A program made the position numbers and the translations under genes. Source: a virus. Taken from it: a DNA stretch of 30,539 nucleotides. Each line of letters starts with the position of its first letter. The first letter of the stretch is position 1. Under the pieces are notes generated by a model, which worked only from the letters and a program-made list of their open reading frames with translations, did no database searches and was not told the DNA's origin. Below, in pieces: positions 2,510 to 23,600 of this stretch. The stretch lies in IMG/VR virus record IMGVR_UViG_3300047560_000525, positions 1-30,539 of that record; one strand, given 5' to 3'.

Positions 2510-2530
2510 CTCTTATATTCCTTAGTCCTA

Positions 2531-2539
2531 GTGTATTTA
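2531..2539 (-). promoter_or_regulatory. Candidate T4-type late promoter for the 510-aa fibre gene
   Basis: Minus strand reads CATAAATACAC, with TAAATA 24 bases before ATG 2509. TAAATACAC is identical to the site in front of gp6. It resembles the T4 late promoter TATAAATA, which is recognised by gp55-RNA polymerase, and gp55 is encoded in this window. Confidence 0.6.
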
Positions 2540-2566
2540 TGCTATTTTGGCTAGTACAGCCGCTCC

Positions 2567-4216
2567 TTAAATGTCTATTCCGCTACCCCAAGCACCGCTA
2601 GATAGGGTAAATTGCTTTGCACTTGCTGTATCAATACACCAAACTCTGCAAATTGCGCCGTCTTGATGTTCAGACGGTGGATAAACCTTTGTAATAATTG
2701 TTAATGCAATCTGTTGATTAGTTAATAATCCAACGTTAATAGATAATGCTAACGGGGCAGTTTGAACTGCATATAGCAATGATTCGTAATTTACTCCGTC
2801 AGTAGGATCAGTCGGATCTGCTAAATTTGTAATTTTCTTGTTACTTACGTTAACTGCGCCCGATCCTTTTGGAACTAACACAATATCGCCGTTAGCTAAT
2901 ACTGGATTAACATACGAAATAGAATTATCGTTAGAATACAAGTAATCAACTTGTAACGATGTTAATGTGCCAACACTTTGCAAGCCTGGAGCACTATTAA
3001 CTGTAACACCCAATGCAGTTTGTGTTAAAACTTCAAAACCATTTACGTGGTATCCTTTTCCTGTTGCAATATCAATATGCTCAGAACTAGTCCACGCAGT
3101 TGTGTTAGCTACCCAAATAATCGACTTGTCTCCGTCGATGCCTGCTTGTAAATTAATACCACCGCCGTCTGCGGTTGTGTTGTCAGGGGTATCAGTTTTA
3201 CCTAAATCAATTAACTTATCTTCAATTTGTACATTAATAGTATTAATAGTTGTTAAATCACCCTCAACTGTTAAACTACCTCTAATTCTTGTATCGCCAT
3301 TTACATCAAGTGTAGCTGTAGGGAGATCTGTGTATATACCCACAAACTGATCCTGTGCGTTAATGTATTGTGCAGGCAATAAGCCTCCTACATTTAACGT
3401 ATAGATTGAATAGTCTTGATTAGCAATGTTAGAATTAATCTGCATTGCATTACTATCAACGTGAATTTCGATATTTTGATTAACACCGAGTATTAACGGA
3501 GTTTCGTTTGCAATTGTAATAGAACCGGATGTTCCTGAACTATCAGTTGTAGAAAGGAAACTTTCTGCATTTTTTAAACTTTGGTCTGCTGCTATTAAGT
3601 AACTAGACGAAGTTACAGGTACATCAAACTTAACACCAGAATAGTTACTAACGTTAAATCCAATATTAATGTCGCCAGTATATCCCGAAATTGGAGATGC
3701 CGGAGTAAATGCGTCTTTACTAAAAATACCTATTAATACTCGAGCAACATACACTAAAACAATAGTATGTTCAATAGTATTTGTATCAAGAACATCAACA
3801 GCTTGCAAACCGCTAATTCCCTGAGACCTAGTATAGATTGGACCTGCTAATATTGTTGCCAATCCATCATTAAAATATAACTGTTGGCGATTACTATCAA
3901 TCCACAGATCGCCCTGCACCATCGAAGGAGTAACGCCAGAAACAATAGTACCACCGGAAACTTTAAATCCGTTTCCGTCATAAACTTTTAATCGACCTTC
4001 GCTAGTATCATACCACAACTGTCCAATTATAGGATGATTTGGTGAACTAGTGTTAGCAAAATTTTCTAAAATATGAATAAAATTCTCATTTACTAATTCG
4101 CCGTATGAACTAGAATTCTTTCCAACTAATGTAATATCAGTTGCTGTTTGATCAATTGTTCCGTCTACAATCTCTGTTAATACAGAACCGTCAGTTTTGT
4201 TTATAATATAGCTCAT
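2567..4216 (-). CDS. Tail fibre protein (549 aa), paralogous N-terminus
   Basis: The N-terminal 130 or so residues match the other two fibres (GKNSSSYGELVNENFIHILE, then QLWYDTSEGRLKVYDG and GDLWIDSNRQQLYF). The middle contains TLDVNGDTRIRGSLTVEGDL and a VQIEDKLIDLG segment, the layered LTVxGDLTT type of repeat common in marine phage fibres. Near the C-terminus, KKITNLADPTDPTDGVNYES is the recurrent ItNLadPtdptDaVn fibre motif. There is neither a tail-collar domain nor the chaperone-like end of the 510-aa protein. Start ATG overlaps the TGA stop of the collar fibre as ATGA, and its Shine-Dalgarno is weak, so translation is probably coupled. Likely a fibre or fibre-associated protein; receptor unknown. 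Confidence 0.8.
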   Translation of the reverse strand: MSYIINKTDGSVLTEIVDGTIDQTATDITLVGKNSSSYGELVNENFIHILENFANTSSPNHPIIGQLWYDTSEGRLKVYDGNGFKVSGGTIVSGVTPSMVQGDLWIDSNRQQLYFNDGLATILAGPIYTRSQGISGLQAVDVLDTNTIEHTIVLVYVARVLIGIFSKDAFTPASPISGYTGDINIGFNVSNYSGVKFDVPVTSSSYLIAADQSLKNAESFLSTTDSSGTSGSITIANETPLILGVNQNIEIHVDSNAMQINSNIANQDYSIYTLNVGGLLPAQYINAQDQFVGIYTDLPTATLDVNGDTRIRGSLTVEGDLTTINTINVQIEDKLIDLGKTDTPDNTTADGGGINLQAGIDGDKSIIWVANTTAWTSSEHIDIATGKGYHVNGFEVLTQTALGVTVNSAPGLQSVGTLTSLQVDYLYSNDNSISYVNPVLANGDIVLVPKGSGAVNVSNKKITNLADPTDPTDGVNYESLLYAVQTAPLALSINVGLLTNQQIALTIITKVYPPSEHQDGAICRVWCIDTASAKQFTLSSGAWGSGIDI

Positions 4217-6342
4217 AGAAATACACCAGTGTAGATAATGTAGTTGATTGTCTGATATGGGTTCATTGTAGACAATGGTTGTCCTGTTGACGGTGTAATA
4301 ATACCACCAGTATTTGGAACCGATAAACCAGAACTTGTTGATTGCGGCCCTGGAGGACTTACTCCGTTAGAGTCGCTTGTTAGACCTGGACGACCAACTG
4401 CAAAGTAATCAGCTTGCCCGCTAGACAATGTGTGTCTATGGTCTGGTAAGTTACTAATAGCAAGTGTACGTGTTTCACTTCCTGAGCCTGCTCCTAATGT
4501 ATCAGCAGTAACGTCAGTAACTCGATTAGAGCTACCTCCGCCAGCATCAATAAGAACATTAGGATTAACTTTATCAGGAACCGTTGTATTGTTATCCATA
4601 TTGTCGCGCCCTAACGGGAAGCGACCTCTTAAATCAGGCAATGCAAAAGTGTTTTTACCAATTAACAATACTGCCGGTTTATATGTATAACCAATAACAG
4701 AGAACAAATCAGAATATGAACCAATTTGAACTTCGCTGCCATCACAGAACAAGTATCCAGTCGGAGGCGTTGCTCCTGCAAACGGAATAATAGCGCCAAC
4801 TGGTACTAACGGAATATTTGATAGTAATGTTTGTTTTGTTACTTTTCTTAAACCAACACCTGGTCTATAAATTAAAAGTTCGTCAGTATTATTAGAAGTT
4901 GTTGATTCTGTTTTATTTTGAATAAGGTCTTGACTAATCGATGTTTCAAAAGTTGCAGTACCGTTAGTAGTTTGTCCATTAAACGCAATACTATTACTAG
5001 AAACGTCACCTGTTAAACTAAAAACTGTAGGACTTGCTAACTTTGCAGCAGAACCAGTAATGTCACCTGCTAACGCACCGGTGAACGAACCAGTAAAGTT
5101 ACCAACAAATGTTTGTGCATAAACGTTTCTAAATGTTCTCGTTGAAGAACCAATATCGTATAATGCATTTGCTGAATCGGTACCTGGAAGAATAACACTC
5201 CCGCCGATTGGGTTACCAAGGCCGTCTAGCTTGTTAACAACAATGTTTCCATAAACATCAACATCTCCGCCAACATTAAGATTTAATCCAACACTTGTTC
5301 CGCCTGCAACAATTAAACTTCCGTTGCCAACTGCGGTAGAATCTGTTTCACTTGAAATTGTAGTAATACCTGATATCAATGCATTACCTAATACATCTAA
5401 TGTAGCTTGCGGGTTAGTATTACTTGGGCCTACACCAATTCGATTTCTTGCATCAACATGCAATACTGTGTTAGTCGAACCAGAATAATTAAGTTTAAAA
5501 TCAATACTTGCACCACTAGTCTTATTATAAAATACTGTACCGGATGTATCTGTACTTAAATTAAAACTTAAATCACTACCGACAGTAAGTCCACTGTTGT
5601 TTCTAATGTTAACTGAGTAATTTGTAGTACTTGTTTGATCGCTTCTTAAGAAATTGGCTGCAGATACTACAGCATTGTTTACGTTTAAACCGTCTGCTGT
5701 ACTTGCTGTTCCCCAAAACTTAGTGGGTGCTGTAGAGCTTCCCGAGTCAACTGAACTTAAATTAATACCTTGATTTATTGTTGTAAATCCAGATATAGTT
5801 TGTTTAGGAGTAAATGCTTCTTTACTAATAATTGCAATTCTGTTGCTGTTAGCATACATTGTCAACACACTGTGATCAATGTTTGCAGTATCTGAAATCG
5901 TTTCTACAATCGGACCTGTCTGTGTACCAGCACTAAATTGAGGACCAACTAGTAACCAGTTAGATCCAGAGAACATGTATAGCTGTTGATTGTTTGTATC
6001 AACCCATAAGTCTCCTTTAATACTACCAGACACACTCGGTGCAGTGGTTGCTTTTTTAACACTGCCTGCTGCCGACCATGTTGTTCCGTCAAATACTTTT
6101 AATAAGTTAATACCTGCACTATTATCAAACCATAATTGCCCCTGAACTGGGTTCGAAGGTGCAGTTGGTGCAGCAAAATTTTCTAATAAATGTAAAAAGT
6201 TTCCTGCAATAACTGGGCCATAGCCTGCATAATTCTTACCGGGAAACTGTAAGGTCGATGCAGAAGCTAACGCACCGTCAAGTACAACTATGGGCGGTTT
6301 AGCAGGATTGGCTGTTTCTGTATAATTTACGTTATAAGTCAT
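4213..6342 (-). CDS. Short-tail-fibre-like protein with phage tail-collar domain (709 aa)
   Basis: The N-terminus shares the fibre module (FPGKNYAGYG, GNFLHLLENF, two GxLWxD units). Residues about 513 to 580 form a phage tail-collar domain (VPVGAIIPFAG, GYLFCDGSEV, FALPDLRGRFPLGRD), as in T4 gp12. H635 and H637 in NLPDHRHTL match the HxH of the gp12 family, where trimers bind metal through such histidines; metal binding here is inferred. The end, NPYQTINYIIYTG, is typical of collar-domain fibres. The linker has the DIGSSTRTFRNVYAQTFVG module also seen in the 510-aa fibre. GGGGA lies six bases before the ATG. It lies 13 bases after the 201-aa gene and overlaps the 549-aa gene by four bases. 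Probable role: receptor-binding fibre attached to the baseplate. Confidence 0.88.
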   Translation of the reverse strand: MTYNVNYTETANPAKPPIVVLDGALASASTLQFPGKNYAGYGPVIAGNFLHLLENFAAPTAPSNPVQGQLWFDNSAGINLLKVFDGTTWSAAGSVKKATTAPSVSGSIKGDLWVDTNNQQLYMFSGSNWLLVGPQFSAGTQTGPIVETISDTANIDHSVLTMYANSNRIAIISKEAFTPKQTISGFTTINQGINLSSVDSGSSTAPTKFWGTASTADGLNVNNAVVSAANFLRSDQTSTTNYSVNIRNNSGLTVGSDLSFNLSTDTSGTVFYNKTSGASIDFKLNYSGSTNTVLHVDARNRIGVGPSNTNPQATLDVLGNALISGITTISSETDSTAVGNGSLIVAGGTSVGLNLNVGGDVDVYGNIVVNKLDGLGNPIGGSVILPGTDSANALYDIGSSTRTFRNVYAQTFVGNFTGSFTGALAGDITGSAAKLASPTVFSLTGDVSSNSIAFNGQTTNGTATFETSISQDLIQNKTESTTSNNTDELLIYRPGVGLRKVTKQTLLSNIPLVPVGAIIPFAGATPPTGYLFCDGSEVQIGSYSDLFSVIGYTYKPAVLLIGKNTFALPDLRGRFPLGRDNMDNNTTVPDKVNPNVLIDAGGGSSNRVTDVTADTLGAGSGSETRTLAISNLPDHRHTLSSGQADYFAVGRPGLTSDSNGVSPPGPQSTSSGLSVPNTGGIITPSTGQPLSTMNPYQTINYIIYTGVFL

Positions 6343-7010: not shown

Positions 7011-10000
7011 TTATGTATTCTTGAATTCCGAGTACCATGTACCAGGTTCAGATTTTAAAAACTGAGCAATTTTGTTAGTATCGTGCTGAATATTAACAGC
7101 AGAATCCCAAGATTTACCTAAACGTTTTACTACTACAATTCTGTTGCCTACAATTGGAGCATCTCGTAAAGTAATTTTCTTAGAAACCCCATCAACACTG
7201 AATTCAGCAGCAAACGCAACATCACCCTCCGGGCTATCTGGGTAGTTTGTATCTACTCTATACTCAGAGTACGCATATTTTTTAAGTCTGCGGCCTCCAA
7301 CAAACACTTCAATCTCGTCAACACTAGAAGGTACAAATTCTAAATCAACATTAGTTGTTCCATTGGAATCAACTTTAGCAATAACTGTATCTTCGGTATA
7401 AGGCAATGTTTCACTTACTCCGATTTCTTGAACTATCGCACCAACCTTGTGTACATCTCTTACACCTGTTCCTAAGGTACCTCGGCGAATCTGACCCAAC
7501 ACATTACCGTTTAAAGTAAAGTATTCAATACGTTCTCCAGAAATTTCAATAATACCAGGTTTGTTGTTTGCTGGACTTGGAGGGTCAAAGTTACTTGCAT
7601 CCGCAACATGGATTGTTGTATCTGTTTGATGCAATGCTTGTGTTAATACAGTTTGTTTTGTCTTGTTCAAGCGTTTGAAGATTGTTCTATTTAGAATATC
7701 CTTAAACTGCATATATGCGATACCAGAAGATAAAACATTAGTTCCAAATGTTATAATGCTAAACTGATCTTCAATTGCTGGATCAAACGCTAATTTAATA
7801 CTTTGCTTATCTTTTCTTAACTTGAAATCAATACCAGGGGTTAACAATGTTCCATTTTTAATAACCCAAATGTAACTATCATTTAATACTGCTCTATCAA
7901 GTTTTAATAAACCACTAGATAGGCCTCTATATTTGTAGTACTCTTCAGTAGACGGTGTTAACGATAAGTTAGAAGTAATATTAATAGCAGTTCTTTGCAT
8001 ATCAAGAATATCGTGTTGATATGAACTGATAACTTCAATTGTATCAGTAGATTGGTATGCTTGGCTTGTAACTAATAACGGAGGTGTACTTGGTACATAG
8101 TGGTACCCCTCACCTTGCTTAATGCTTACAATTAACTGCTTACCGGTGTATTTTTTATACGTTGCCTTATTAATTTTAATTGTAATACCACTTAAATCTA
8201 TAATATAATCAATTGCAGGATTTAATAAGTTGCCATCGACTAATACAACAATATCGTTTGCTGATACAGTATATGGTAAGAACTTAATCGGATCAATTGT
8301 ATAATTAAGTTTGTTACTCTTAATTGTAAAATAGTTATTGTTAGGTGCTAACAGAATATTTTGATTAACTCGTACTATCATATTAGATTCAATAGGTAAT
8401 GAATCTCCAATAATATTTGCTAATTGATATGTGTCTGTACCATTTCCGGCAAACGTTTCTGATTTAGTAACAGAGAATGTTTGTTGTGTTCCACTTACAA
8501 TTACAAAAGAAATTAATGATTGATCTGCAGGTTCTGTAATGAATCGGATACCAATTCTATTTGTACTTTCGTATGACGAGTCGGTTTTAAACAACTCAAC
8601 AATTGCCGGTTGTCCGTCTACATAAACCATATAAGATACATCTTTTAACCACGGTGCTTTAGTAATGAATTCTTTAGTTACACCATTACCAACAAAGTAG
8701 TCTAAGTCAAGGATGTTAGAACCGTTAAATCCAATACTGAATATAGAAATCGTAACTCCGTCTGCTGGAGGAACAACGGTTGTAACAGTTTTGTTCTTAT
8801 AATCAAATGTATAATCAGTGTCTCTTTCAAGAACATATGATTGTCTACTTAGAGTGCCATCTATGCCAACAACTTTTTCTACAGTTTTAACAATGATTGC
8901 TTGTTTGCTGTTAGGAGTTTGGCTAATAACAAAACTGTCAGTTGTGCCATCACCTAAGAAGCTATCAACCTTAACTACTGCATTACCAATACTTGGTCTA
9001 TCAAAAACTTTAATTGCAACAGCATCAACAACTTGTCCCGGAACAACTTCTTCAGGTGAAGGATTAGTTGTTGGGGTAACAAATCCGTCACCATCAATAA
9101 TAATTTCGTCAGCAGTTTTACCAGTTGCAGTACTGTATACTCCAGTAACATTATCCAATGTTCCACCTGAAAGCGCAGTATCATAATCGTCTTCTCCAGG
9201 CGCAATACTTCCGTCGCTTGTACTCTTACGAATTAAAAATTCGTCGCCTGCGTATGTATCAAAACCGCTAGGTATTGTTATAGAACTAATTGCGCCATCG
9301 GCAATTACAGTTTTCATAATTGCATATGGTTTGTCGGGCATAAAGGCGCCGTCATAATTTGGATCATCAATTCTAATTTTATTCAAATATGCTTTGATGC
9401 TAAGGTCTGCATGTTGTACTAATGGCTCAGTTAGCTGAACTAACCCAGTTGCATTAATTGTGTAATCCGTTGGTGAAACTAATGTTCGAGTAAACACTGC
9501 GGTTGCATTAACAGGAATAGTTCTAAATAAAATTTGTCCTAATTTAATTGTATTGCTCAAAGGAAGAATTTGAGAAATTTTGCAATTATATGCAACGCCG
9601 TTAACAACAGACGGGATTGTTAAAACATCACCAACTTTTAATCCAACAACGCTATTTAGAATCAACGAATCAATACCCAAATTACTCTGATGAGTTACTG
9701 TTCTAGTAATTGTTGCTTCTACATTAAGTGGTGCGTTGTCATAAACGCTAACAGGATAAGTTACTGTTACACCGTCGGTGTCTATATAAGTTTCATTGTT
9801 TAACTTTGCATAGTAAACATTTAATTCTGTACCTGTTTCTGGTACATACCCCAATTCAATAGTATGTTCACCGTCGGCTTGGATTGTTTTAACTATGTCA
9901 TTATAAGTTTCATCTAAACTTGCCCACTTGTCCGAATAGTAAGGTAAGTTATCCCAGCCGCCATTAACTTCAAAACCCATTCCAGATACAATTACGCCAC

Positions 10001-13000
10001 CGTAATCAATACCAGACATTAATTGTGCAAGGTCTTTACCTAATTCACCAGTTGCAGGATCATAATAAAACTGAACTCTATCCGCTGCATTAAGCAGAGA
10101 CCAATCTTTCTTATATGTAATCTTAATTTCTGCGCCTACTGCAGGAGCAACATCAAATGTAATCGAGCCGCTGTAGCTAGTGTACCCTTTAGATGTTGAC
10201 TTAACTGTTGTTAGTTTATATGAATCACGAAGCGCATCGACACCGTCAATAGTTACACTAGATTGGTTAACTCTAATATCTGGAGCCCATACTAATGGGA
10301 ATTGTAATCTAGATCCAGTTCCGTATTTTGTTTCAGTTTGTTCTAAACTGTTAAGAACATAAGTTTTTGTAATACGATCAAACTTCATTTTAATTAAAGT
10401 TGAGCGAACTACACTATCTCCGATAATTGCAACGGCAGTTGCTGGAGTTCCCGACGGTAACATGCCGCCATCAAGAACAATGCGAGGTGCATCTAAATAA
10501 TCAGATCCTTGTGTTAACAGTGTAATTCTGTTAACTTTGCCATTTGAAATAAATGCTCGTGCAGTAGCGCCTTTACCTGAACTGCCTACAAATCGAACTA
10601 CAGGTGCTGATATATAACCAGAACCTTGATCAATTATTTTAATATCAACAATTTTAAATCCAACATTATCTAACCAATGTTTCCAAGGATAGCTGTGTAT
10701 TGCACTGTCAGTAGCAGTAATTTTACCATTAGAAACACCGGTCCCAATAGTAATTACTTTGTCGCCTTCAAATATTGGCGGAACATCAAAGTCAGTTATA
10801 GACATTTTGCCAGTATCAATATTTGAATAATTGCTAATATACTCTCGTACTTTTGTTCTATAAGGTTTGACTTCGTTAACATATGATTCAAAGTCTGTCA
10901 AATTATCATTTGAATATGTAACTTTTTGTGATAGCTTGCCTACATTATGATGAACTTTAACAAAACTAGTTTTAAATGCCCAGTCAATGTAACTTTGTTC
11001 AGCTAGCGCATATCTTAAATTAGAGAAAAACAAGTTTAAATATTCAACTTTTAAATCATCAATTAGAATTGAATTCTTAATTGATGTAAGAATATTTCGC
11101 AACTCAACAGATGCAGCATTATCAAAAATACTTCCGTCATATAACGAACCGTCATAACCATACACACTGCCTTCAAAGTCATATAAGCTAGAAGAGAATT
11201 GTATAGTTCCGTTTTGAATGCCAACAACTTGATAACTTTGTGTCCAATCAACTGATGTAGATTCTTGATACTTTCTTAAAAGCATCCAATTGCCAGCGTT
11301 GTTTGTTGTTACTTTGACTAATTGTCCTACTTGAACATCGATAGAATTAATAGACGATAATGTATCAACTACATAATCAGATGCAACGAATTGGTTAAAT
11401 CCAGTGTCATACCAGTCAACATAATTCCAATATTTTCTTGTGTCATATGTTTGACTTTGTAATCTAGACCACACTTGTGTTAAGGGTTCGTATGAGTAGA
11501 TACTCCAACTACCGTCTGCTTGAGAATCACTTTTTACCAATACTGCATAGTTTCTAATTACTAGCACTGTTGACTGATCATATCCCTCGCCTGCATTTTC
11601 AATTTTTACTCCGGTGATTTGTCCTTTAACATTAATAACTGTACGAATCTTAGCATTAATACCGTTACCGATTACATCAATATACGGTGCAACTAGATAA
11701 CCATTACCTTTATTAATAATATCAACACCTGTAATTTTACCATCTGTAATTACTGGAGATAAAGACGGTTTTACAAATGTACTAATAACTGCAAATTTTA
11801 ATTCAGCATCAGTATCAAGTGTTGCATCATATAAGCCTTTAATAACATTAGGCTCAGAGTCATATACACCAAGAAGACTTAAATCACGATTTTCGGAAAT
11901 TTGATTTTTAATTAAAACTCTGTTAACTTGTTCAATTAATTGTTTTAATGCTTCAAAGCGATTAACAAAAATACCTTGACGTGGTCTGTTTTCAATGCCA
12001 TAACGCAGCTTAATAGGCAGAGTAGTATCAGGAACTATTCTACCCGAACTGTCTTTTCCACACAAGCTATCAAACCACTTTTGTTCAATACTTGCCGGTA
12101 ATGCTGACTCAACATCGTTGCTAACTAATTTCCACTCTGTGTGAATATTTCTAGTATCGCTATCAACAGTCCAGTATTCAATAGATAGTACAATATTAAC
12201 ATCGTTTAATAAAGGCTTAACGTTAACTAGACTAAAACTATTTGCGCTAGTTAATGCAATATATCTGTAACCTTGACCTCTTGGGTTTTCGATTAATGCA
12301 GCAACATCCTTAGCTGTAATATTTCTATTTTTTAAATTAGGTAAAGTAACTTTGTTTTTAACCCAATAGTAATACGTTCTCTTAAATGTTTTAGAAACAT
12401 TATCATAACGTTTAGTAATACTGTAAACAGTATCATCATAAAGTGTTGTGCCGCTTATACCTACTGCTAGACCTTCTTCAGTATCTGCTAATGTATTCCA
12501 TGCAGATGGAAGCATAGTAGAGCTCACCCATTCATACACATCAATACTTGCACCTGGGAATAAAGTATTCCAAGTACTGTTTCTATATACAACATCATTG
12601 TCAGAACTATCGATAAATTTAGCAGTTCTTAAATCCCACCACAGTGTTCCAACTTGGGCTGCGGACCAAGCAATGCCATCATCAACATTAACTGCATCTG
12701 TACCAACAGAATAAACTGCTGGATCATAAAATGTTTTGTATTTTAATTCTTCTTCAGCAATTCCAGGAATTTTTCCTTGTGTTGGATCTATAACATCTAA
12801 GTAAGTAACTAACTGATTAGTTTGCTTATTGTATAAGAATGCTTGTTTAATTTTTGTAACATCTGGTTTATCGATCTGTTCGTGTAATACTTTCCAGCTC
12901 AATGCATTTGCAGATTTAACAAATGTGTAAACTTTTCCAGACATAACTCCTTGATCATCTGCACTAGGAGCACTAACAAAAATAATGTTGTTACCTACAC

Positions 13001-16000
13001 TAAAACTAGAACCAAATCCATCAGCATCATTAGATGGGTTTGTTATTGTGTCACCATATACCCATTTTAATGAGTATCTATCATATGTACTAATTCTGCC
13101 AACGTTATTAGAAGTTTCACTAAAAATTACAAGTGTTTGGAAGTTATTCATGAATCTAATTTTAGATCCAAAGTAATCATTAGCTTCACCTTGATCGTTT
13201 AAGATTGGCTGGTATTCTTCATACCCCGAACCAGTATTAACGTAGACTGTAACTTTTCCTCTTCCAGAATTGTAAGAAATATCCGATACTGCAACATATG
13301 TTGCATCAGAAGACACACATATATCCGAGCTTCCGGTTATATAACCTACATAATCATATGTGCCTGAATTATTTGAATAGTAATAAGTTCGATTTACAGT
13401 TGGGCTAGTAACAAATAATGTCGAATTGTCATCACTCATTACTAACTTTTCTCCAAATGCTGTATCAGGCACAGCCGGAGTAAGTACATTATTTGTGTAC
13501 TGCCAATAAGTTAATGTAAACTGTAAAACACCAGACGGTGTGCTGTCAGGTAAACTGCTTATAATAATTGTGTTTGAATCAACAACTTGTACAACTGTTT
13601 GTCCGCTGGTAAATCCGTCACCAACTACTGTCATTCCTTCTGTAATTGTTCCGCTTAACACAGAAATCTTTACAGTATACTCTGAACTGCCAACTGGGTT
13701 GTAAGATGCTGTAGCTTGAGTTGCAGTTACATATTCTAATTGATAAATTTGATTAGAACCAGATGCTGTAACAAATAATCTGTTATCTCCGAATACTAAA
13801 GAGGATCCAAACATTTCATCATTGTCTGGGTTAGGACTTGCTATAGTATATTCTGGAGTGAAAATATTGTTGTTATCCTTTTTATAGATAGTAACAACAC
13901 CTTGATTATCAAACCCGCTAGTTGTACCAGTACTGTCAACAATGTTTAAATTAGTATTTGATATAGTTACAGCCTGTGATGCTGTCGGAACTCCTGACGC
14001 AAACCAAACACTATTAGATGACAGTGCAATAACATCACCAGTTTCAGTGTCAGATGTTGGGTTGCCATTTATGTCAGTAGCAGAAATAAACGGCGGTACA
14101 ATAATCTGACGTTGGATCCAAGGCGATAGTGAGGTTGCCTTATCGTAAACAATAATTTCGCCTAAACTGTTTGACAGGATAGATATTGAATTAGACTTGT
14201 TAACAAGAACCTGTCTGCCATATAGCAATCCATCTTGCGGTATAGAATTCGAAAGTTCAGATTTAGAGTAAATGTTGTTATGTTGCCAAACAGTCCATTT
14301 TCCCGAGCCATTGTCGTCAGTCCAAATAATCTCGTTTTCGGTTAATGTTAATGGTAGGATTGTTTGCGCATCGTCAATTCTACCAACTCTTTGTGTGTTA
14401 ATAGAAAATATTTGAATTGTGCTTTGTTCAGCAAATGGTTCCCAACCGCTAATTGTTGCCGTGACATCAAAAGAATTTGTGTCAACGTTTATAATTTTAT
14501 AAAAGTTACTAAATTTTTGAACACCCTTGATAGCAATGTAATCACCTACATTGTATGTGATAGTATTGCTGCAAGTTATAGTTAATGTTGTACCTGCATA
14601 CGCAGCATCAGTAACTGTTAAATTGTCATTAGTTAATCTATAAACATTCCAAAAATGAGGAGGATTGTCAAATGCACACCAAATGTAACTTCCTTCACTA
14701 AACAATGAAACATCTTGTGTTAATATATCTTCAAGCGATGCCAATGTTGCAGTAACATCGTCTGAACGAACATACCCCGGTGTTCTTAGATAAGGTTTAA
14801 ATTTATCAATTACAGGCCACGGTGCATTATTGTAACCTAAAGGTTTTAAGTAAACATCATTAGGTGTTTGACGAATGATAAAGTCTACTAATGCATTGTC
14901 AACAGTTTGTACTAATTCAATTCCTTGAGGATTTGCTTTGAATAGAGACTCGTCTAAATTAAATTCAATATTCTCAAATGCCGCTGTAGAACCGTATTGG
15001 CTTAATCTTAATGCCCACTCTTCGTAGAATGACAAACTTGATTGGTCTGCTGCACTTAATACATCAAACAATTTATTAAGAACGTTCTGTGTTCCTTTTT
15101 CAGCAATCATACCTTGATAGAATTTAAATTCACTAACATCATCTTTAATAATGTTTGAAAGGTATTGACGTTTTTGATATCCAACTAAGTGCTGTGCTAA
15201 TTGCTGTTGAGACGAGTCAAAATTATCACTGTCTAAACTGTAAAAATCCATAAACTGCCCAGCTCTGTATGTCCAGTTTGGTAGTAAAGTTTGAGTTGGT
15301 TTGTCAGTGTCTTTAATCCATTTAGTTGCGTCAAAAGTTTCAGCACCTGGGACAAACGATCCTGCGCTGTAATAAAATTCTTTATACTTAACAATATCGC
15401 CAAGCGCATAATCTTGCCATGGTTCCCAATTTTGAATTACAGCTTGGTCAAATATAAATCCAGGAACATCAAATCCACCATACCAATCAGTACTTACATA
15501 GCCGGCAACTTTAATTCTTTCTTGGCGATACCCGCTAGCAGGATTGTAAATTGTATCATTAAAAATTGTTGTGTTATTGATAAGAACAACTTGTTCTTGC
15601 TGAATTAAGTAGAAACTTGCACCAAAAATACCGTAGTCATCTCTAGGTGTGTAACTAACTGCATTTTCTTCTCTGTAAGAATTTAAAAAGTTAGAAGCAA
15701 GGGGAGTTCCATCAACTTTAAATATTTCATAATTGTTAAAAGGATTATTAATATTATCAACAACAGATAGTGGTGTTTTAAATGTAATATTTGTAGCACT
15801 TGGGCTTAATGATATTACTGAACTTCCAACAGTACTTAAACCTTCTAACTTAACATATGCTGTTGAATCAAACAGTGTTGTAGGAACGTTATCTTGGCTA
15901 GATCTGTAATACTCTCCGTTGTATCTAACAATTTCACCGTAATTAACGTGTTGATTTGGAGTCCATTCTTTCCACTTGTCTTGGCCGCTAGACCAGTTTT

Positions 16001-19000
16001 GTGTTGTCCAGAATAAAAATTCTTTAGCACTGGTTTCCCAATTAGAAACTACATTTAATGTGTTGTTAAAATTATCAAAGATAAATCCTTGATCTTTTAG
16101 ATACTCCCCGTATCCTTGTAAGAAATCAACTATTTCTTGGGTTGAACTAAATTTAGTTCCGTATGGGATTACAATAGGATCTGTGCGATCCCATGTTTTT
16201 CTTAAAATTGCATCTCTACCGCCAATGATTGGTAATGCTCCCAACACTTGATAGTTTGTAGGATCAAATGTTGCGGTTGTTGTATGTAATGATAACGATC
16301 TATAATATTTTTTGTTGTACTCAACAATTTTACCTGCGGCATATTGATATCCGGGAGTCCATATAGCATATGATTCCGAAATTCCGCCAACGTTAATTGA
16401 TACGCCAGACTGTGTCCAAGGATAATATTTAAAATACGGCTCAGTTAAACTGTACCCAGTTACACTATATCCATCAGCAAACTTTGTAACAATTACTGCA
16501 CTGTATGTAATCTTCTTAATAGGACTAGATGAATTAAGAATAATTGAATAGTCTTCTTGGGGTACAAATACACTACCTTGGCTTAACGGTGTTTTACTAT
16601 CTAATAATAAATTAAATTTTTCTTTGCTAGTAAATGCACCAACACGGTAGCTTAGTTTTGCTTCAATATTATTCAAATCGTATAGATATGAATTATAAGA
16701 TTTTAAATTATCACTTAAAATATAATCAACAATATAATTTATAATACCAGCTGTTTGAACAAATGCTTGGCTCAAGTAGATGCTAGGTAATACGATATCT
16801 TTCGGTGTTACTCGTAAGTTTGTATCTTTATAAACTAGTTGTCCAGTAACATTTCTGATAATTCTTGATCTATCTAACAATAATCCAAATGTCTTAGCTG
16901 GTTGCAATAACATAGAAGTTAACAACACTGCAAAAGGATAGTAACTGCTTCTTCTCCACGCTGCTTCTACTGGGCTTACATCGCCAAATGTAAAACTGCT
17001 ATCAGTAGATGTTGTAATAATGCCTTGAGATAACCCAGACATTAACGGGCTAAGAACATTTCCAGAAGCATCTACTGGGATGTGATTTAACAAATACTTT
17101 CTAATATATTTTGGCAATACTACGCCAGGAGTGCCTGGCTCTCTAACTAATCCGTTAGATAAATCTGTCCACAACGGAATATTGTCACTTGTATAAGGAG
17201 CAGGCCCATACACTGAGGTCCACCACGATGGTTCTTCGCTAAACCCTAACATTTCCCATGGGCATAGATGAGGACGGTCAGTTCCTAATATCCAACGATA
17301 TACACCTCTCCAATATCCGGGAGTTTCTCTGCCATCCGGAGCTGCATGACCTTTATAGTTAAAAGTCATTGGGTTATTTCTATCGTAACTTAAATGTTTT
17401 GTAAAATCTTTATCAACTAGCGGTAACCATTTATAGAAACTAGATGATAGTGCTATATTAAATTCTTCTAAAGAATAATCAGTTGCTCTATTGTAGTTAG
17501 GAACAATATCGTCAATGTCAAAAATACTTGTATCGTATGTTACTTTAATATTGTTATAGATTCTTTTTTCTAATTCTATAATTAAATCATCACGATAATC
17601 GCCATATGCAAGTGTAATACTTCCATCGTGGCCTTGAATAACATTTTGTGGAACTAATAACGTTGTATCCAAATACATCTTAGGTTCGTACTTTGGCCAA
17701 ATACCTAACTTAGTAGGTGTCTGTGGTACAAAACATCCATTAGTATTATCATATTCAATAATAGTAATAGTATCGCCGTTAGCTAGTTCAACACTGCTAT
17801 CAATGACAATAAATCCCTGAGGGTCAAAAGTATAATGACGCTTTACTAATAATTGTACGTTGTTTAAATAAACACCAACAGCTTTATTTGAAAGTTCGTC
17901 GATACTAAACACGTTAGTTAGTGGATATGTTTTAATTCTGTAATCAACAACATGTAAATTAGTTTTAATTTTGCCGCCATACGGAACCATATCGCTAAAA
18001 TAAAACGGCGAAGTGTTTGGTGTATCTTTGTTAAGTTTTTCTAAAATTAAATCTACTTGTGATACAGCGTTAGAATCAATACCTAAAGATTCTGCTACAA
18101 TAATAAAGTTTCTTTTAAATTTGCCGTATTCATCACGAGCATTTTCAATAGCTTTAACAACGTTGTTATTTTCGTTTGTTATATGATATATGCTTAAACT
18201 TGCAGGACCGCTATGTTGCACAAAACGAACGCCATACGGTGTAACGTTTCCTAAATCTCGTAAATTTCCAGCGCCAGGAAAGTTTCCAGAAAATCCATTA
18301 ATATTTTCTACAATAGACTCAACATGATCAATTACTTCACCTAATGTAAAAGTTGATATCTCTTCATTTAGAGGGTTATTTTGTAAAATCGGAGGAATTT
18401 CATAATGACCGTTTTTGTTAATCGGTTGTGATGCATACGCTTTGATTGTTAAGACATCATCTGTCGAAATATCAGAATCTAGCACAATACGTTTGTACAC
18501 TATTCCCGAAACTATAGACCATTTAGTATTATCTAATCTAATACCGTTAACATAAACTTTTACAACTAAGTCAGATAAACTGTTAACATCATCAAAAATA
18601 TCAATGTTAAAGTTGTTTACTTGATTAGAATTTTTGTAAATTCTAACTGCTGCTTGTGTAGTTGTAGCCAGACACTTTTGCCATCCGTTAATAAATGACG
18701 TTGTTCCATCGACATTAGTCTTCTTTAAATAACCAATGTTTGTGCTTTTAGTAACAACCTCGCTAATTGTTTTATATTGGTATGTGTCATTTAAAATATT
18801 AAAATTAAAAACAATGTCACCAATGTTGTTAATATTTTTATGTGATAATGCAAATCCTAAATTGCTATCAACTGTGCCTGTTCCTACTTTATAAGAAAAT
18901 AATGCAGTCCCACTAAATGTAGAACCATTATAGACATCTGTATTGCTAACACTATATCCGTTATCGTCAAAAATATCAAAATACGGTGTTTGATTTAATT

Positions 19001-20618
19001 TTGTTTTTTGCTGACCATAGTGCCAAGTTGATCCGTCATACCAGTACATTAGCCCTTGAGACGAAACTCCTTGCTTAACTAGTACAGTGTTACCCTCTAC
19101 CGGCTCTGATTCAAGTTCTAAATGAATTTGTCGACGACCTTGTATTGTAGTAAATGTTACTTTATAAATTTTATTTTTAACTAATCTATCAGTATCAGCA
19201 GTAAACAACACACGTTGGTTTTGACTTAATTGAATTCCATCAACGTTATAACCTAAGCTACCTTCAATTGTCGAAAATACATCTTTGGTAAAATTGTCAA
19301 TTAAATCTACGTCAGCAATAGCTCTTGTTCCAAAATTGAATAACTTAACGTTTGCTTCAAATTCGATAATTGGACGAACTGCTCTCGACGACTGGTCTAA
19401 CGCAGGTACTTGGCTGTTGTATTTTGCACTTGCTTCAATTACATCTTTGTGGAACCAACGATTAATACGGCTCCACGGGTTGTGATCTTGACTAGAACGG
19501 TTAATAACAATGTAATCTCTTGTTCCTGCAAACGAAGTTGCTTCACCCCATGGCATAGCATCAAACGGAGTGCTGTCAAACTGAACGTTTTCAGTCTTTG
19601 TATAATCGCTTACAATTTCAAGAATCGACTCAGGGACCAATTCAATTGAACTTCCTACACCTTCTACATAATAAAAACCAGATGCATATGATTCTGGAAT
19701 AACGGTTCCAATAAATCGCACCTTCATTCCGTTGCTAAGTTTTGTACCGTCTGCTAATGTGTAATTAACTTTTCCTAAAATTTCAGAGCTAACGTCTATA
19801 ACTGTATTAGTGTCTATAGATTCAATTTGAAATAGTCCACCAAGGTCGCTATCAGATTCACTCATGTAAAATAATACATCAGGTGCGCTAAATGGCACTG
19901 TAAAAGTAATTGAGCCAACTTCTACACTTTGATTATCAATGTCAGGAGTATTATATAAATCTTGTCCGTATGGAGTTCTGCGTGTTTTAATACTAAAAGG
20001 ATTGCCTGGACTATTAATATTAAATTTGTAAGTTTGCCCTCTATACAATTTAATTGTCGGGTTTCTTACAAGTGCATTAGGTTCAAAAATATAAACATTA
20101 TTGTCACCTTCGGATTCAATAGTAATATTGTACTCGCTTGTAATTTTTTCCTGAGCTCCAAAAATTACAATAGGTTCTGGGCCATAAGGTAGCCAGTAGT
20201 AATTTTGAAAGTTTACAAATTTATCCCAATCAATGTGCGGGTCCCAGCTATACATTTCTTGTTTGTTAATGCGTTGATGATCAGCAGTAGGGGCACCAAA
20301 CACGTTTAACTGATTAATATAATCTTGGTAATCTTTAAAAAATGTTGTATTGCCTAACGTGTCTTGTACTGTTAATCCTGGCTCTAGCTGATAATTCTGA
20401 CGCATTTGAGTAGCAGCGTTAATAAAGACATCTTTACCAACTGTTGCTTTTGCATACTGTCTACCAATATATCCGTTAATCTTATTAACAGTACCGGGTT
20501 GAATTAGCTGATCAATTGTTGCTTGTAAAAACTTTTTATTTGCATCTGATTGATAAATCTTTGGCAAAAATTCATAGCCTTTACCGCTAGATGAATTTGG
20601 ATTTGTTTTATCAGCCAT
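7011..20618 (-). CDS. Giant multidomain virion protein (4,535 aa)
   Basis: A single open frame of 13.6 kb predicts a protein of about 0.5 MDa. The N-terminus (FLPKIYQSD, KFLQATIDQLIQPGTV, INGYIGRQYAKA, then YSWDPHIDWDKFVNF) looks like large structural proteins of marine T4-like phages. Domains in order: about 180-267 cupredoxin-like fold without copper ligands; about 1060-1160 Trp-rich conserved core (PGYWRGVYRWILG, PWEMLGFSEEPSWW); W1420, W1552 and W1734 start three CBM5/12-like modules; about 2150-2570 FG-GAP-like beta-propeller; GxGY/xxAP modules near 2950-3020 and 3320-3385; then GNGTxxxF beta-sandwich repeats; about 4320-4400 a module with LGQIRRGTLGTG. The start overlaps the gp6 stop as TAATG and has GGGAG six bases upstream. 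It replaces the T4 gp7-gp10 neighbourhood, so a peripheral baseplate or fibre-network role is inferred. Confidence 0.85.
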   Translation of the reverse strand: MADKTNPNSSSGKGYEFLPKIYQSDANKKFLQATIDQLIQPGTVNKINGYIGRQYAKATVGKDVFINAATQMRQNYQLEPGLTVQDTLGNTTFFKDYQDYINQLNVFGAPTADHQRINKQEMYSWDPHIDWDKFVNFQNYYWLPYGPEPIVIFGAQEKITSEYNITIESEGDNNVYIFEPNALVRNPTIKLYRGQTYKFNINSPGNPFSIKTRRTPYGQDLYNTPDIDNQSVEVGSITFTVPFSAPDVLFYMSESDSDLGGLFQIESIDTNTVIDVSSEILGKVNYTLADGTKLSNGMKVRFIGTVIPESYASGFYYVEGVGSSIELVPESILEIVSDYTKTENVQFDSTPFDAMPWGEATSFAGTRDYIVINRSSQDHNPWSRINRWFHKDVIEASAKYNSQVPALDQSSRAVRPIIEFEANVKLFNFGTRAIADVDLIDNFTKDVFSTIEGSLGYNVDGIQLSQNQRVLFTADTDRLVKNKIYKVTFTTIQGRRQIHLELESEPVEGNTVLVKQGVSSQGLMYWYDGSTWHYGQQKTKLNQTPYFDIFDDNGYSVSNTDVYNGSTFSGTALFSYKVGTGTVDSNLGFALSHKNINNIGDIVFNFNILNDTYQYKTISEVVTKSTNIGYLKKTNVDGTTSFINGWQKCLATTTQAAVRIYKNSNQVNNFNIDIFDDVNSLSDLVVKVYVNGIRLDNTKWSIVSGIVYKRIVLDSDISTDDVLTIKAYASQPINKNGHYEIPPILQNNPLNEEISTFTLGEVIDHVESIVENINGFSGNFPGAGNLRDLGNVTPYGVRFVQHSGPASLSIYHITNENNNVVKAIENARDEYGKFKRNFIIVAESLGIDSNAVSQVDLILEKLNKDTPNTSPFYFSDMVPYGGKIKTNLHVVDYRIKTYPLTNVFSIDELSNKAVGVYLNNVQLLVKRHYTFDPQGFIVIDSSVELANGDTITIIEYDNTNGCFVPQTPTKLGIWPKYEPKMYLDTTLLVPQNVIQGHDGSITLAYGDYRDDLIIELEKRIYNNIKVTYDTSIFDIDDIVPNYNRATDYSLEEFNIALSSSFYKWLPLVDKDFTKHLSYDRNNPMTFNYKGHAAPDGRETPGYWRGVYRWILGTDRPHLCPWEMLGFSEEPSWWTSVYGPAPYTSDNIPLWTDLSNGLVREPGTPGVVLPKYIRKYLLNHIPVDASGNVLSPLMSGLSQGIITTSTDSSFTFGDVSPVEAAWRRSSYYPFAVLLTSMLLQPAKTFGLLLDRSRIIRNVTGQLVYKDTNLRVTPKDIVLPSIYLSQAFVQTAGIINYIVDYILSDNLKSYNSYLYDLNNIEAKLSYRVGAFTSKEKFNLLLDSKTPLSQGSVFVPQEDYSIILNSSSPIKKITYSAVIVTKFADGYSVTGYSLTEPYFKYYPWTQSGVSINVGGISESYAIWTPGYQYAAGKIVEYNKKYYRSLSLHTTTATFDPTNYQVLGALPIIGGRDAILRKTWDRTDPIVIPYGTKFSSTQEIVDFLQGYGEYLKDQGFIFDNFNNTLNVVSNWETSAKEFLFWTTQNWSSGQDKWKEWTPNQHVNYGEIVRYNGEYYRSSQDNVPTTLFDSTAYVKLEGLSTVGSSVISLSPSATNITFKTPLSVVDNINNPFNNYEIFKVDGTPLASNFLNSYREENAVSYTPRDDYGIFGASFYLIQQEQVVLINNTTIFNDTIYNPASGYRQERIKVAGYVSTDWYGGFDVPGFIFDQAVIQNWEPWQDYALGDIVKYKEFYYSAGSFVPGAETFDATKWIKDTDKPTQTLLPNWTYRAGQFMDFYSLDSDNFDSSQQQLAQHLVGYQKRQYLSNIIKDDVSEFKFYQGMIAEKGTQNVLNKLFDVLSAADQSSLSFYEEWALRLSQYGSTAAFENIEFNLDESLFKANPQGIELVQTVDNALVDFIIRQTPNDVYLKPLGYNNAPWPVIDKFKPYLRTPGYVRSDDVTATLASLEDILTQDVSLFSEGSYIWCAFDNPPHFWNVYRLTNDNLTVTDAAYAGTTLTITCSNTITYNVGDYIAIKGVQKFSNFYKIINVDTNSFDVTATISGWEPFAEQSTIQIFSINTQRVGRIDDAQTILPLTLTENEIIWTDDNGSGKWTVWQHNNIYSKSELSNSIPQDGLLYGRQVLVNKSNSISILSNSLGEIIVYDKATSLSPWIQRQIIVPPFISATDINGNPTSDTETGDVIALSSNSVWFASGVPTASQAVTISNTNLNIVDSTGTTSGFDNQGVVTIYKKDNNNIFTPEYTIASPNPDNDEMFGSSLVFGDNRLFVTASGSNQIYQLEYVTATQATASYNPVGSSEYTVKISVLSGTITEGMTVVGDGFTSGQTVVQVVDSNTIIISSLPDSTPSGVLQFTLTYWQYTNNVLTPAVPDTAFGEKLVMSDDNSTLFVTSPTVNRTYYYSNNSGTYDYVGYITGSSDICVSSDATYVAVSDISYNSGRGKVTVYVNTGSGYEEYQPILNDQGEANDYFGSKIRFMNNFQTLVIFSETSNNVGRISTYDRYSLKWVYGDTITNPSNDADGFGSSFSVGNNIIFVSAPSADDQGVMSGKVYTFVKSANALSWKVLHEQIDKPDVTKIKQAFLYNKQTNQLVTYLDVIDPTQGKIPGIAEEELKYKTFYDPAVYSVGTDAVNVDDGIAWSAAQVGTLWWDLRTAKFIDSSDNDVVYRNSTWNTLFPGASIDVYEWVSSTMLPSAWNTLADTEEGLAVGISGTTLYDDTVYSITKRYDNVSKTFKRTYYYWVKNKVTLPNLKNRNITAKDVAALIENPRGQGYRYIALTSANSFSLVNVKPLLNDVNIVLSIEYWTVDSDTRNIHTEWKLVSNDVESALPASIEQKWFDSLCGKDSSGRIVPDTTLPIKLRYGIENRPRQGIFVNRFEALKQLIEQVNRVLIKNQISENRDLSLLGVYDSEPNVIKGLYDATLDTDAELKFAVISTFVKPSLSPVITDGKITGVDIINKGNGYLVAPYIDVIGNGINAKIRTVINVKGQITGVKIENAGEGYDQSTVLVIRNYAVLVKSDSQADGSWSIYSYEPLTQVWSRLQSQTYDTRKYWNYVDWYDTGFNQFVASDYVVDTLSSINSIDVQVGQLVKVTTNNAGNWMLLRKYQESTSVDWTQSYQVVGIQNGTIQFSSSLYDFEGSVYGYDGSLYDGSIFDNAASVELRNILTSIKNSILIDDLKVEYLNLFFSNLRYALAEQSYIDWAFKTSFVKVHHNVGKLSQKVTYSNDNLTDFESYVNEVKPYRTKVREYISNYSNIDTGKMSITDFDVPPIFEGDKVITIGTGVSNGKITATDSAIHSYPWKHWLDNVGFKIVDIKIIDQGSGYISAPVVRFVGSSGKGATARAFISNGKVNRITLLTQGSDYLDAPRIVLDGGMLPSGTPATAVAIIGDSVVRSTLIKMKFDRITKTYVLNSLEQTETKYGTGSRLQFPLVWAPDIRVNQSSVTIDGVDALRDSYKLTTVKSTSKGYTSYSGSITFDVAPAVGAEIKITYKKDWSLLNAADRVQFYYDPATGELGKDLAQLMSGIDYGGVIVSGMGFEVNGGWDNLPYYSDKWASLDETYNDIVKTIQADGEHTIELGYVPETGTELNVYYAKLNNETYIDTDGVTVTYPVSVYDNAPLNVEATITRTVTHQSNLGIDSLILNSVVGLKVGDVLTIPSVVNGVAYNCKISQILPLSNTIKLGQILFRTIPVNATAVFTRTLVSPTDYTINATGLVQLTEPLVQHADLSIKAYLNKIRIDDPNYDGAFMPDKPYAIMKTVIADGAISSITIPSGFDTYAGDEFLIRKSTSDGSIAPGEDDYDTALSGGTLDNVTGVYSTATGKTADEIIIDGDGFVTPTTNPSPEEVVPGQVVDAVAIKVFDRPSIGNAVVKVDSFLGDGTTDSFVISQTPNSKQAIIVKTVEKVVGIDGTLSRQSYVLERDTDYTFDYKNKTVTTVVPPADGVTISIFSIGFNGSNILDLDYFVGNGVTKEFITKAPWLKDVSYMVYVDGQPAIVELFKTDSSYESTNRIGIRFITEPADQSLISFVIVSGTQQTFSVTKSETFAGNGTDTYQLANIIGDSLPIESNMIVRVNQNILLAPNNNYFTIKSNKLNYTIDPIKFLPYTVSANDIVVLVDGNLLNPAIDYIIDLSGITIKINKATYKKYTGKQLIVSIKQGEGYHYVPSTPPLLVTSQAYQSTDTIEVISSYQHDILDMQRTAINITSNLSLTPSTEEYYKYRGLSSGLLKLDRAVLNDSYIWVIKNGTLLTPGIDFKLRKDKQSIKLAFDPAIEDQFSIITFGTNVLSSGIAYMQFKDILNRTIFKRLNKTKQTVLTQALHQTDTTIHVADASNFDPPSPANNKPGIIEISGERIEYFTLNGNVLGQIRRGTLGTGVRDVHKVGAIVQEIGVSETLPYTEDTVIAKVDSNGTTNVDLEFVPSSVDEIEVFVGGRRLKKYAYSEYRVDTNYPDSPEGDVAFAAEFSVDGVSKKITLRDAPIVGNRIVVVKRLGKSWDSAVNIQHDTNKIAQFLKSEPGTWYSEFKNT

Positions 20619-23600
20619 TAGTTACTCCCGAATTTTGAACTTGTAATTGATTGTTGACTTGACACATTTGTAGTTGTAGTTGTTCCAGCAATTGCTTTAA
20701 TAGAACTTGCAGTGATTCCAGATATAATTTCAACATCGTCAACTGTTGCGCTACTAATGAATAGCTCATTATTTCCAGATTTAATTTCAAATAAACTACC
20801 AAAACTTAATCCGCTTTGCTTTGGTACTATAACAAAGTTTGAAATATCTGGGCTTAGTTGTGTTACAACATATGTTGATAATTCTGTAAAATAGAATGTA
20901 TCACCAAAGTCCCAATTGTTTAATAAAAAGAATTGATTTATTGCACCAATAATTCTCGATTTAATATCGTTATCCGATACAACTTGTCCTGAATTTTTTA
21001 CTACTTTAAATGTTGCTTGTAACTCAGGAGCAGCAGAAGGACCAAATAATAATTTGTACTTAACAGGATGATATACAACTTCATCGCTAATTGATTTTAT
21101 TAGATTTAAGTTTGGTGCAAGCATGTCGTGCAATTCATCAGATCCCGGAGGTAATGGTTCTTTAGAAATGGCACCTGCTAACCATTGACGGTAATTAGTG
21201 TCATATGTCTTTGTTAACACATATATGTCAATGATGTTGCTTGCGCCAGCATCAATTCTAGAATCATAATCTGCACTATGATTATATTGGAATTTAAGGC
21301 CGTCGCGACCTGGGTATACTTTGTAATCTAACGATGCGTTAAATAATCCAGTTGTTGCATCATACTTCATTACTACGCCGGTAGTTGTAAAATAAAAATA
21401 TTGACCATTAACCTTTTCGGAGTATTGAACGTTTTCTTTCTTATCACGAATAATAACCGGGCCAAGTATAGAATCGTTTTTAACATATCTATAATCTTCC
21501 TGACCAACAGTAATTAAATATTTCTCTAATACAATGTATTTTGTAGAAGGCAAGTACGATGGGTTAACAATGTTTAAGAATGTTTCAGGATCGTCAACTA
21601 CACCATCATCGTCTTCGTCTGCAAACGAAACTACTAATTTTTTGCTATCTACATAACCATCTAATCCAATAAACTCAGAAATAATATCCCATTTCTGATC
21701 AGTAGTAAACGGAATAGTTCCGCCCGGATTTGTAGAACTTGTTGGCTGAGCATTAATGCTTAGAACATTAATATAGTCTTTAACAACAGACGATGATCTG
21801 CTATCATATATTTTCTTAGACGAGTCAAAATAGAATCTAATTTGTGCATCACTTTCAAAAACATAACGCTGTTCTCTTGAAGTGATTGTATATGTAATAT
21901 TATCTGTTGTGAATAGTAACATCCAGCTTGCATCTTGGGATTGGTTACTGTTGTCGCCTTGTTTCGATAAGCTAAACGGATTTGTTGCATCTAAGTTAAC
22001 TTCAAACACTAATTGCCACGCTTGCGTCGATGCATTGTAACTTAATCCAAATGGTTTGTTTGCAAATATTAAATCAATCATTGTAGTGATAGTATTAGTA
22101 TCAATTACAGTTCTCCACTTTGGAATGATTTGTGTAATAATTGCACCTTCTGGAATGTTTTGATTTAGTGTAACTGCTCCATATCCTGTAGCTGCAACAC
22201 CAGAACTGCTTACACCTGTTCCGTCTCCTACAACAGAAACAACTTCAGCCCATAATGTAGTTGTTGAGCCAAACGCAGTTGCTGATCCGTTAACGATCGA
22301 GTTACTATCTAACTTATTAAAATACGTACCAGCAGGTGCTGTAAATTTAACTAGCGAACCTGGAGTAAAATATTTTAATCCAGTAATTGTATAAGACCCC
22401 AACGGATATACTGTTGCTGCTTGAATTGCCTTAATGTAACCAGTAGATGAAGAACTATCTTCCGTAACTCTTACCCACTCAATGTTTAATAAACTTTCAG
22501 AAATTAAATTAATGTAATTTGTGTAGTAGAAGTTTCTTAAATTTTTTCTTTTTAAAATATCAAATACGGTATTGTAAATAATGCCTTCAATGTCAGTTCT
22601 TACATTGTATGTAAAGTTAACTTGATTAGCATAATTTTCTAAATAGATGACACCGTCATCCGCAAATAACGTTGTACTGCTATATTTTCCTGTAGGATCA
22701 ATTAAATCAAAATAACGACTAATGCCGCTTGATGTTCTATTAATTGCTTTAATCTTTGAAACTAAACCATTTGCTGATAAAGGACTAATGTTATAGTCTT
22801 CGCCGGTAATCATTCTATTTTGTGTATAGAATGTTGCAGGTGCATTTGCTTTAATACTAGCGTTAGTTTCAGTTACTGTTGCATTAGAAACACTTGTTGC
22901 TAAGTTTAAATTGATTGTTAAAGTTTCAACTTGATTTGTTTGTGAAATATACGGAATAGAGAAAGATACATTTCTAATATCTGATGTATTAATTGTATAT
23001 GATAGTCCGTTGCTTACACGATAATATGTGCGGAATGATCCAAGAGGTAAATTACCAAATGTTCCATCGCTGAACTGTAAACTAACTGCATCATTAGCTC
23101 TTGTTAATACAGCAAAAATATCTCTAATATTTTTATTAAGGCTGTTATAGATAACGTTGTTAGATTCAAAATTAGATACAGATGTCCACTGTCCTGACTC
23201 AATGCCGTTAGAATCAAGTTTATATAACCAGACATCTGTGTCATTAATGTTTTGTGCATCAATATCAATCGATTGATTGCTGCTCGGTTGTGTTACAGAA
23301 AACACACCAGTATTAAGTGTACCTTGAACAAAACGAACAAAAAATCCAGTGCCCGGACTACTTGCACCGTGACCGTCATCTCGGTATACGCATTTAAATT
23401 GATTGCCTACTTTAGGTGCATCTTCATAGATAAATGATTGACCAGAAAATGTTGTGCTAACAATTTCAAAGTTCATTGATCTACCAGCAACTGTTTTTGT
23501 AAATGTAAAAATTGGAATGCCGGACGATACACTATTAAATTGGTATTGTTGGGTTGGTATTCCATAAATTGATGCAGAGTCAGCAGGATTGCCAAACTGT

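Follow-up and report, generated by a model that had tools for sequence, protein, structure and literature searches.

In the alpha chains of animal integrins, seven FG-GAP blades form a beta-propeller, the ligand-binding head, whose B-C and D-A loops make up the ligand-binding face, from which the I domains emerge. FG-GAP propellers are also known from giant viruses of eukaryotes and from a scattering of phage proteins, and the family FG-GAP_2 (PF14312) consists of FG-x-S/A ... (G)AP ... G-x-V-Y-x-Y repeats of ~45 to 50 amino acids (aa), with short A-B hairpins that lack a calcium loop. Beta-propeller lectin fibers (eBAP3) occur in extracellular contractile injection systems, where they sit on collagen-like fibers (PMC12923769). 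We found no literature linking FG-GAP to phage tails, tail fibers, baseplates, or jumbo phages, most subscription journals being outside the scope of the search. Here we analyze a 30,539-base virus record, IMG/VR IMGVR_UViG_3300047560_000525 (the window), whose minus strand carries baseplate genes and a gene (7011 to 20618) for a giant virion structural protein of 4,535 aa, P0001. Residues 2131 to 2584 of this protein (12867 to 14228, minus strand) are, with near certainty, predicted to fold as a seven-bladed FG-GAP-type propeller. We put at roughly 0.6 the probability that this calcium-loop-free propeller, set in a variable slot of a giant protein of the baseplate cluster, is a modular domain that the baseplate displays to bind the host surface.

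The repeats from which an FG-GAP propeller had been proposed in an initial annotation are confirmed as real and beyond chance. All four strings that it quoted were recovered in the 4,535-aa open reading frame (MFGSSLVFGDNRLFVTAS at residue 2269, AFGEKLVMSDDNSTLFVTSP at 2387, YFGSKIRFMNNFQTLVIFSE at 2482, and GFGSSFSVGNNIIFVSAP at 2534), as were the strand motifs GKVTVYVN (2454) and GKVYTFVK (2561). Together they span window positions 12915 to 13814, inside the interval of 12910 to 14170 assigned to them, and the whole propeller is slightly longer than that interval. A blade hidden Markov model (HMM), built from relatives with the window and its nearest relative left out, scored 45.3 bits on the window slot alone, compared with a best score of 6.1 among 200 shuffles, and applied to the whole protein it matched at residues 2215 to 2571 only (four domains, 34.6 bits).

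Structure prediction bore out the propeller call with high confidence. An AlphaFold2 model of window residues 1925 to 2597, made from an alignment of 39 slots (A3), has a pLDDT of 89.3 and a pTM of 0.86 and places 28 strands in seven blades of four between residues 2133 and 2580. A second model, of a relative (L042) that is 24% identical to the window in alignment A4, also shows seven four-stranded blades at a pTM of 0.86. When the PDB was searched with a family profile of 39 relatives, integrin alpha-4 was matched at an E value of 3.8e-12, together with the propellers of integrins alpha-6, -L, -M, and -X. Foldseek likewise matched seven-bladed propellers, integrin alpha-M/X among them; for the L042 model, integrin alpha-X/alpha-M gave TMq values of 0.61 to 0.62, the highest among the matches listed, with G-beta at 0.58 or below.

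According to the model strands, all encoded on the minus strand, blade 1 comprises residues 2133 to 2173 (14100 to 14222) and blade 2 residues 2192 to 2260 (13839 to 14045), the latter with a long B-C loop (2211 to 2240) that is the main insertion site in relatives. Blade 3 (2266 to 2379; 13482 to 13823) is interrupted between strands C and D by a beta module of ~69 aa (2299 to 2367; 13518 to 13724; AlphaFold strands 391 to 429 of the model), which contains GTITEGMTVVGDGFTSGQTVVQVVDSNTIIISSLPDSTPSG and is also found in relatives L014 and L018. Blades 4 (2388 to 2428; 13335 to 13457), 5 (2428 to 2473; 13200 to 13337), and 6 (2479 to 2526; 13041 to 13184) follow, with the FG position of blade 5 occupied by SS in the window. 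Blade 7 (2535 to 2580; 12879 to 13016) coincides with the FG-GAP_2 profile match.

That match is borderline in the window and strong in its relatives. Relative to the curated FG-GAP_2 cutoff of 23 bits, hmmscan gave 22.1 bits for the window (E value of 1.8e-4) and 21.5 bits for the segment alone, while a six-frame search gave 24.5 bits. The slots of 32 of 39 relatives were matched, many well above the cutoff and with a best E value of 1e-31. The related family FG-GAP (PF01839) had no match in the window record and matched 2 of the 39 relatives, and nothing matched in NCBIfam. Conservation is highest at the F, G, P, and aromatic positions of the FG-GAP signature (G2134, G2194, F2270-G2271, G2389, F2483-G2484, G2536, P2211, and P2551), along with the G before V at 2240, 2454, 2507, and 2561; at residue 2430, in blade 5, most relatives have G and the window has S. 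The signature of F-G ... (G)AP ... GxV thus recurs blade by blade, and the integrin-type FG-GAP pattern reported earlier stands. The calcium loops, which had been described as degenerate, are absent: no DxDxDG motif, which would lie between strands A and B, was found in the window slot, and a few occur at this place in relatives L031, L032, L034, L035, and L065. This absence fits FG-GAP_2 rather than the calcium-binding FG-GAP family.

Given the models, the PDB profile and Foldseek matches, the FG-GAP_2 matches, and the absent calcium loops, we therefore call the stretch an FG-GAP_2-like, integrin-type propeller without calcium loops, and not an integrin. It differs from typical FG-GAP_2 members in reaching family significance in blade 7 only, and there at the borderline, in carrying inserted domains, and in being embedded in a phage structural protein of 4.5 kaa. 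Unlike an integrin alpha chain, it belongs to a phage virion protein, and no integrin-like leg region or partner was identified.

The propeller occupies a slot whose content varies between homologues. Giant homologues, gp6-adjacent and similar along most of their length, are encoded by cultivated jumbo phages, including PA5oct (gp355), Atu_ph07 (gp180), Phosso, SCTP-2 (gp140), 121Q (gp582), RaK2, GAP32, CBB, and Munch. In a MAFFT alignment of 13 giants (the window and 12 of these homologues), conservation is found at 1801 to 1900, before the slot, and at 2601 to 2700, after it, with variable content between. In the helical flank just before the slot (residues 1780 to 1905; 14904 to 15281, minus strand), five cultivated jumbo phages share 27 to 33% identity with the window (alignment A2), and the flank just after it (2585 to 2760; 12339 to 12866, minus strand) shows 32 to 40% identity (alignment A1). 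A base domain at the N-terminal edge of the slot (1925 to 2085; 14364 to 14846, minus strand) is partly retained where the propeller is absent. Unlike the window, the slots of the cultivated homologues gave no FG-GAP_2 match. Roughly 110 residues are left in the 121Q group, while the slots of Atu_ph07 and Phosso are repeat-rich and about 1,000 residues long. The latter two (L003, 6729 to 11375, and L004, 7720 to 12348) contain long arrays of G-x-GY-xx-P-x-V-x-V-x-G repeats, for which Atu_ph07 gave a weak Pfam match below the cutoff. A stretch of the SCTP-2 slot that looked LamG-like by eye was not confirmed by Pfam, and this reading was dropped.

Relatives of the propeller itself were found among environmental sequences. 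DNA and protein searches of 50,697 phage records with the propeller gave no match, and since a propeller-only scan of IMG/VR returned just an identical contig, the conserved flank was used as the query. The flank after the slot retrieved at least 568 relatives from IMG/VR, and blade matches (four to eight each) were found in all 77 slots that could be delimited, window included. The best match in BFVD was an uncultured Caudovirales protein at 39 to 43% identity, so relatives are already present in UniProt without a propeller assignment. The C-terminal part of relative L084 had a single weak TolB-like match in phage records, in S-SCSM2R.

Among these relatives the slot diverges faster than its surroundings, and in 17 of 18 nonidentical pairs its conservation is below that of both flanks; between the window and L014, identity is 58% in the slot and 77% and 78% in the flanks. 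Insertions of at least 15 residues are concentrated in the B-C (61) and D-A (11) loops, with 14 in C-D loops (all in blade 3) and none in A-B loops, and the B-C loop of blade 6 alone carries at least 15 extra residues in 31 of 38 relatives. Counted by loop, the B-C/D-A face has insertions in 7 of its 13 loops, compared with 1 of 14 for the other face (Fisher P = 0.013), a statistic that is only indicative because the relatives are not independent samples. Several relatives carry CBM5/12 modules inside the 2B-2C and 1B-1C loops, and extra domains in these loops compare with the I domains of integrins. In the window, three CBM5/12-like modules of chitin-binding type (residues about 1415 to 1462, 1547 to 1596, and 1727 to 1772; 15303 to 16376, minus strand) precede the slot; PF02839 matched this region at an E value of 1.3e-9 and three stretches of the full giant protein. 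Annotations of the PAC2 homologue and of the gp6-like gene from Vibrio phage 2.275 list similar modules.

The setting of the giant gene is that of a tail baseplate. Upstream of it on the minus strand lie genes for a gp5-like baseplate hub (451 aa; 24591 to 25946; phrog_13211, E value of 1.2e-49), a gp25-like wedge (146 aa; 24151 to 24591; phrog_261, E value of 1.2e-16), and a gp6-like wedge (1,161 aa; 20618 to 24103; phrog_10646, 1,015 bits), the giant gene being directly downstream of the last. The order gp25-gp6-giant is common to the window, PA5oct, Atu_ph07, Phosso, CBB, GAP32, and others, and gp6 is directly upstream of the giant gene in 57 environmental loci. The giant protein matches phrog_10938 (virion structural protein) at 1,104 bits over five stretches. 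The PHROG class of this family is "head and packaging," while its location next to gp5, gp25, and gp6 suggests a protein of the tail baseplate. Because the annotation of the PA5oct homologue carries a mass-spectrometry (ESI-MS/MS) note, we take the giant to be a virion protein, and together with gene order this upholds its earlier description as a phage tail protein. The giant gene stands where the T4 gp7 gene does, directly downstream of gp6, and from this order we infer that its product belongs to the baseplate or is attached to it, in the position of gp7. When profiles were made from nine segments of the giant, neither T4 gp7 nor any other T4 tail protein tested was significantly matched.

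Taken together, faster divergence, insertions on the B-C/D-A face, CBM5/12 modules, and conserved columns that are mainly structural suggest a surface-binding domain whose face is remodeled under the influence of the host. The giant protein would sit in the baseplate of a jumbo-type contractile-tailed phage with the propeller facing outward. The B-C/D-A face would bind a glycan or protein of the host surface, sometimes aided by CBM5/12 modules in its loops, and would be remodeled as hosts change; in lineages that recognize their hosts otherwise, the slot might be filled differently or be nearly empty. The propeller thereby probably helps the phage to grip its bacterial host, a binding role that the divergence and loop-insertion patterns support. 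Several observations weigh against this proposal. Closure of the ring is read from strand counts and fold matches of models, and faster divergence can also reflect weaker constraint. The relatives are not independent, gap positions behind the insertion counts were chosen by MAFFT, and in some relatives the insertion is in the 3C-3D loop, which lies on the other face. Gene order is what places the protein in the virion, and no sequence similarity was found to gp7 or other baseplate proteins of T4.

The propeller might instead be architectural, a rigid spacer or docking platform in the baseplate that binds other tail proteins (fibers or tail pins) and not the host. Propellers often serve as docking platforms for proteins, every environmental slot examined contains the domain, and the gene neighbors include several fiber-like proteins, one with a tail-collar domain. 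However, cultivated homologues keep the giant protein without a propeller, the propeller shows lower conservation than the remainder of the giant, and foreign carbohydrate-binding modules gather on the B-C/D-A face. We consider an architectural role less likely than host binding but still plausible. It is far less probable that the propeller is a polysaccharide-degrading enzyme, of glycosidase or lyase type, that clears glycans from the host surface. Several propeller folds are glycosidases or lyases and carbohydrate-binding modules lie nearby, but 25 or 39 relatives showed no clustering of conserved residues that are acidic, basic, or histidine, and no enzyme family was matched in the profile searches, NCBIfam included; that conservation falls mainly on structural FG-GAP positions also argues against a shared enzyme. 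Least probable of all is a propeller of the WD40, lactonase, or PQQ-like type in place of FG-GAP. By E value, G-beta (WD40) and lactonase propellers rank among the best Foldseek matches, and hairpins such as SxDG look like those of such families, but sequence profiles favor FG-GAP_2 and integrin alpha chains, the F-G and G-x-V positions recur from blade to blade, and the TMq values for L042 favor integrins among the matches listed.

If the propeller is a host-binding domain, we can speculate further that this large and essentially uncultivated jumbo-type group places host specificity in an integrin-like propeller of its largest baseplate-cluster protein, the slot serving as an exchangeable receptor-binding cassette, filled by the propeller here and by other sequence in other groups, with carbohydrate-binding modules plugged into ligand-face loops in the manner of integrin I domains. 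This extension is tentative and may well prove wrong; if true, the cassette would represent a type of host-recognition device undescribed for phages. The gp6-adjacent giant, one of the largest proteins that these phages have, is labeled only "virion structural protein," and the propeller gives it a first testable role. A ligand-binding fold in a variable slot, with hundreds of environmental relatives, indicates where host specificity might be sought in uncultivated jumbo phages and adds to the integrin-type propellers a phage example with large insertions on the face that binds ligands in integrins.

By analogy, eBAP3 offers a comparison, as a propeller that is the presumed binding domain on a phage-tail-derived machine (PMC12923769); unlike eBAP3 on its collagen-like fibers, the window propeller lies inside a giant protein of the baseplate cluster. 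Separate viral proteins with FG-GAP repeats or a propeller fold include the "hemagglutinin protein" of Atu_ph07 (gp320), the products noted as CDS 107 and 108 in Phosso, and proteins of giant eukaryotic viruses, but these are stand-alone genes and not a domain of a gp6-adjacent giant. The two Phosso products (L102, 2339 to 22979) are neighboring giant hypothetical proteins (open reading frames of ~3,180 and 3,700 aa) whose FG-GAP_2 repeats number in the dozens and would suffice for several consecutive propellers, and two further Phosso frames of ~430 and 400 aa also match FG-GAP_2. A second FG-GAP_2 protein, in a 1,749-aa frame, was found in a phage that also has the propeller in its giant (L097, from the record of L064; contig positions 127851 to 128804).

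Residues about 151 to 375 of the giant protein (19494 to 20168) are absent from about one in four relatives and are probably an optional mobile domain. Within them, residues 157 to 295 match a protein of cyanophage Bellamy at 30%; a cyanophage "baseplate wedge initiator" match at these residues was not used as evidence for gp7, as it extends over 5% of the query and seems to reflect a small shared domain. A scan of the genome contigs for clues to the host found none. Window positions 977 to 6342 encode three consecutive tail proteins (510, 549, and 709 aa) that share the N-terminal pattern YG...NENF..LLENF...GQLWYD....LK.YDG..W and, judging from this likeness, are apparently tandem paralogs; the third has a Phage Tail Collar domain at its C-terminal end.

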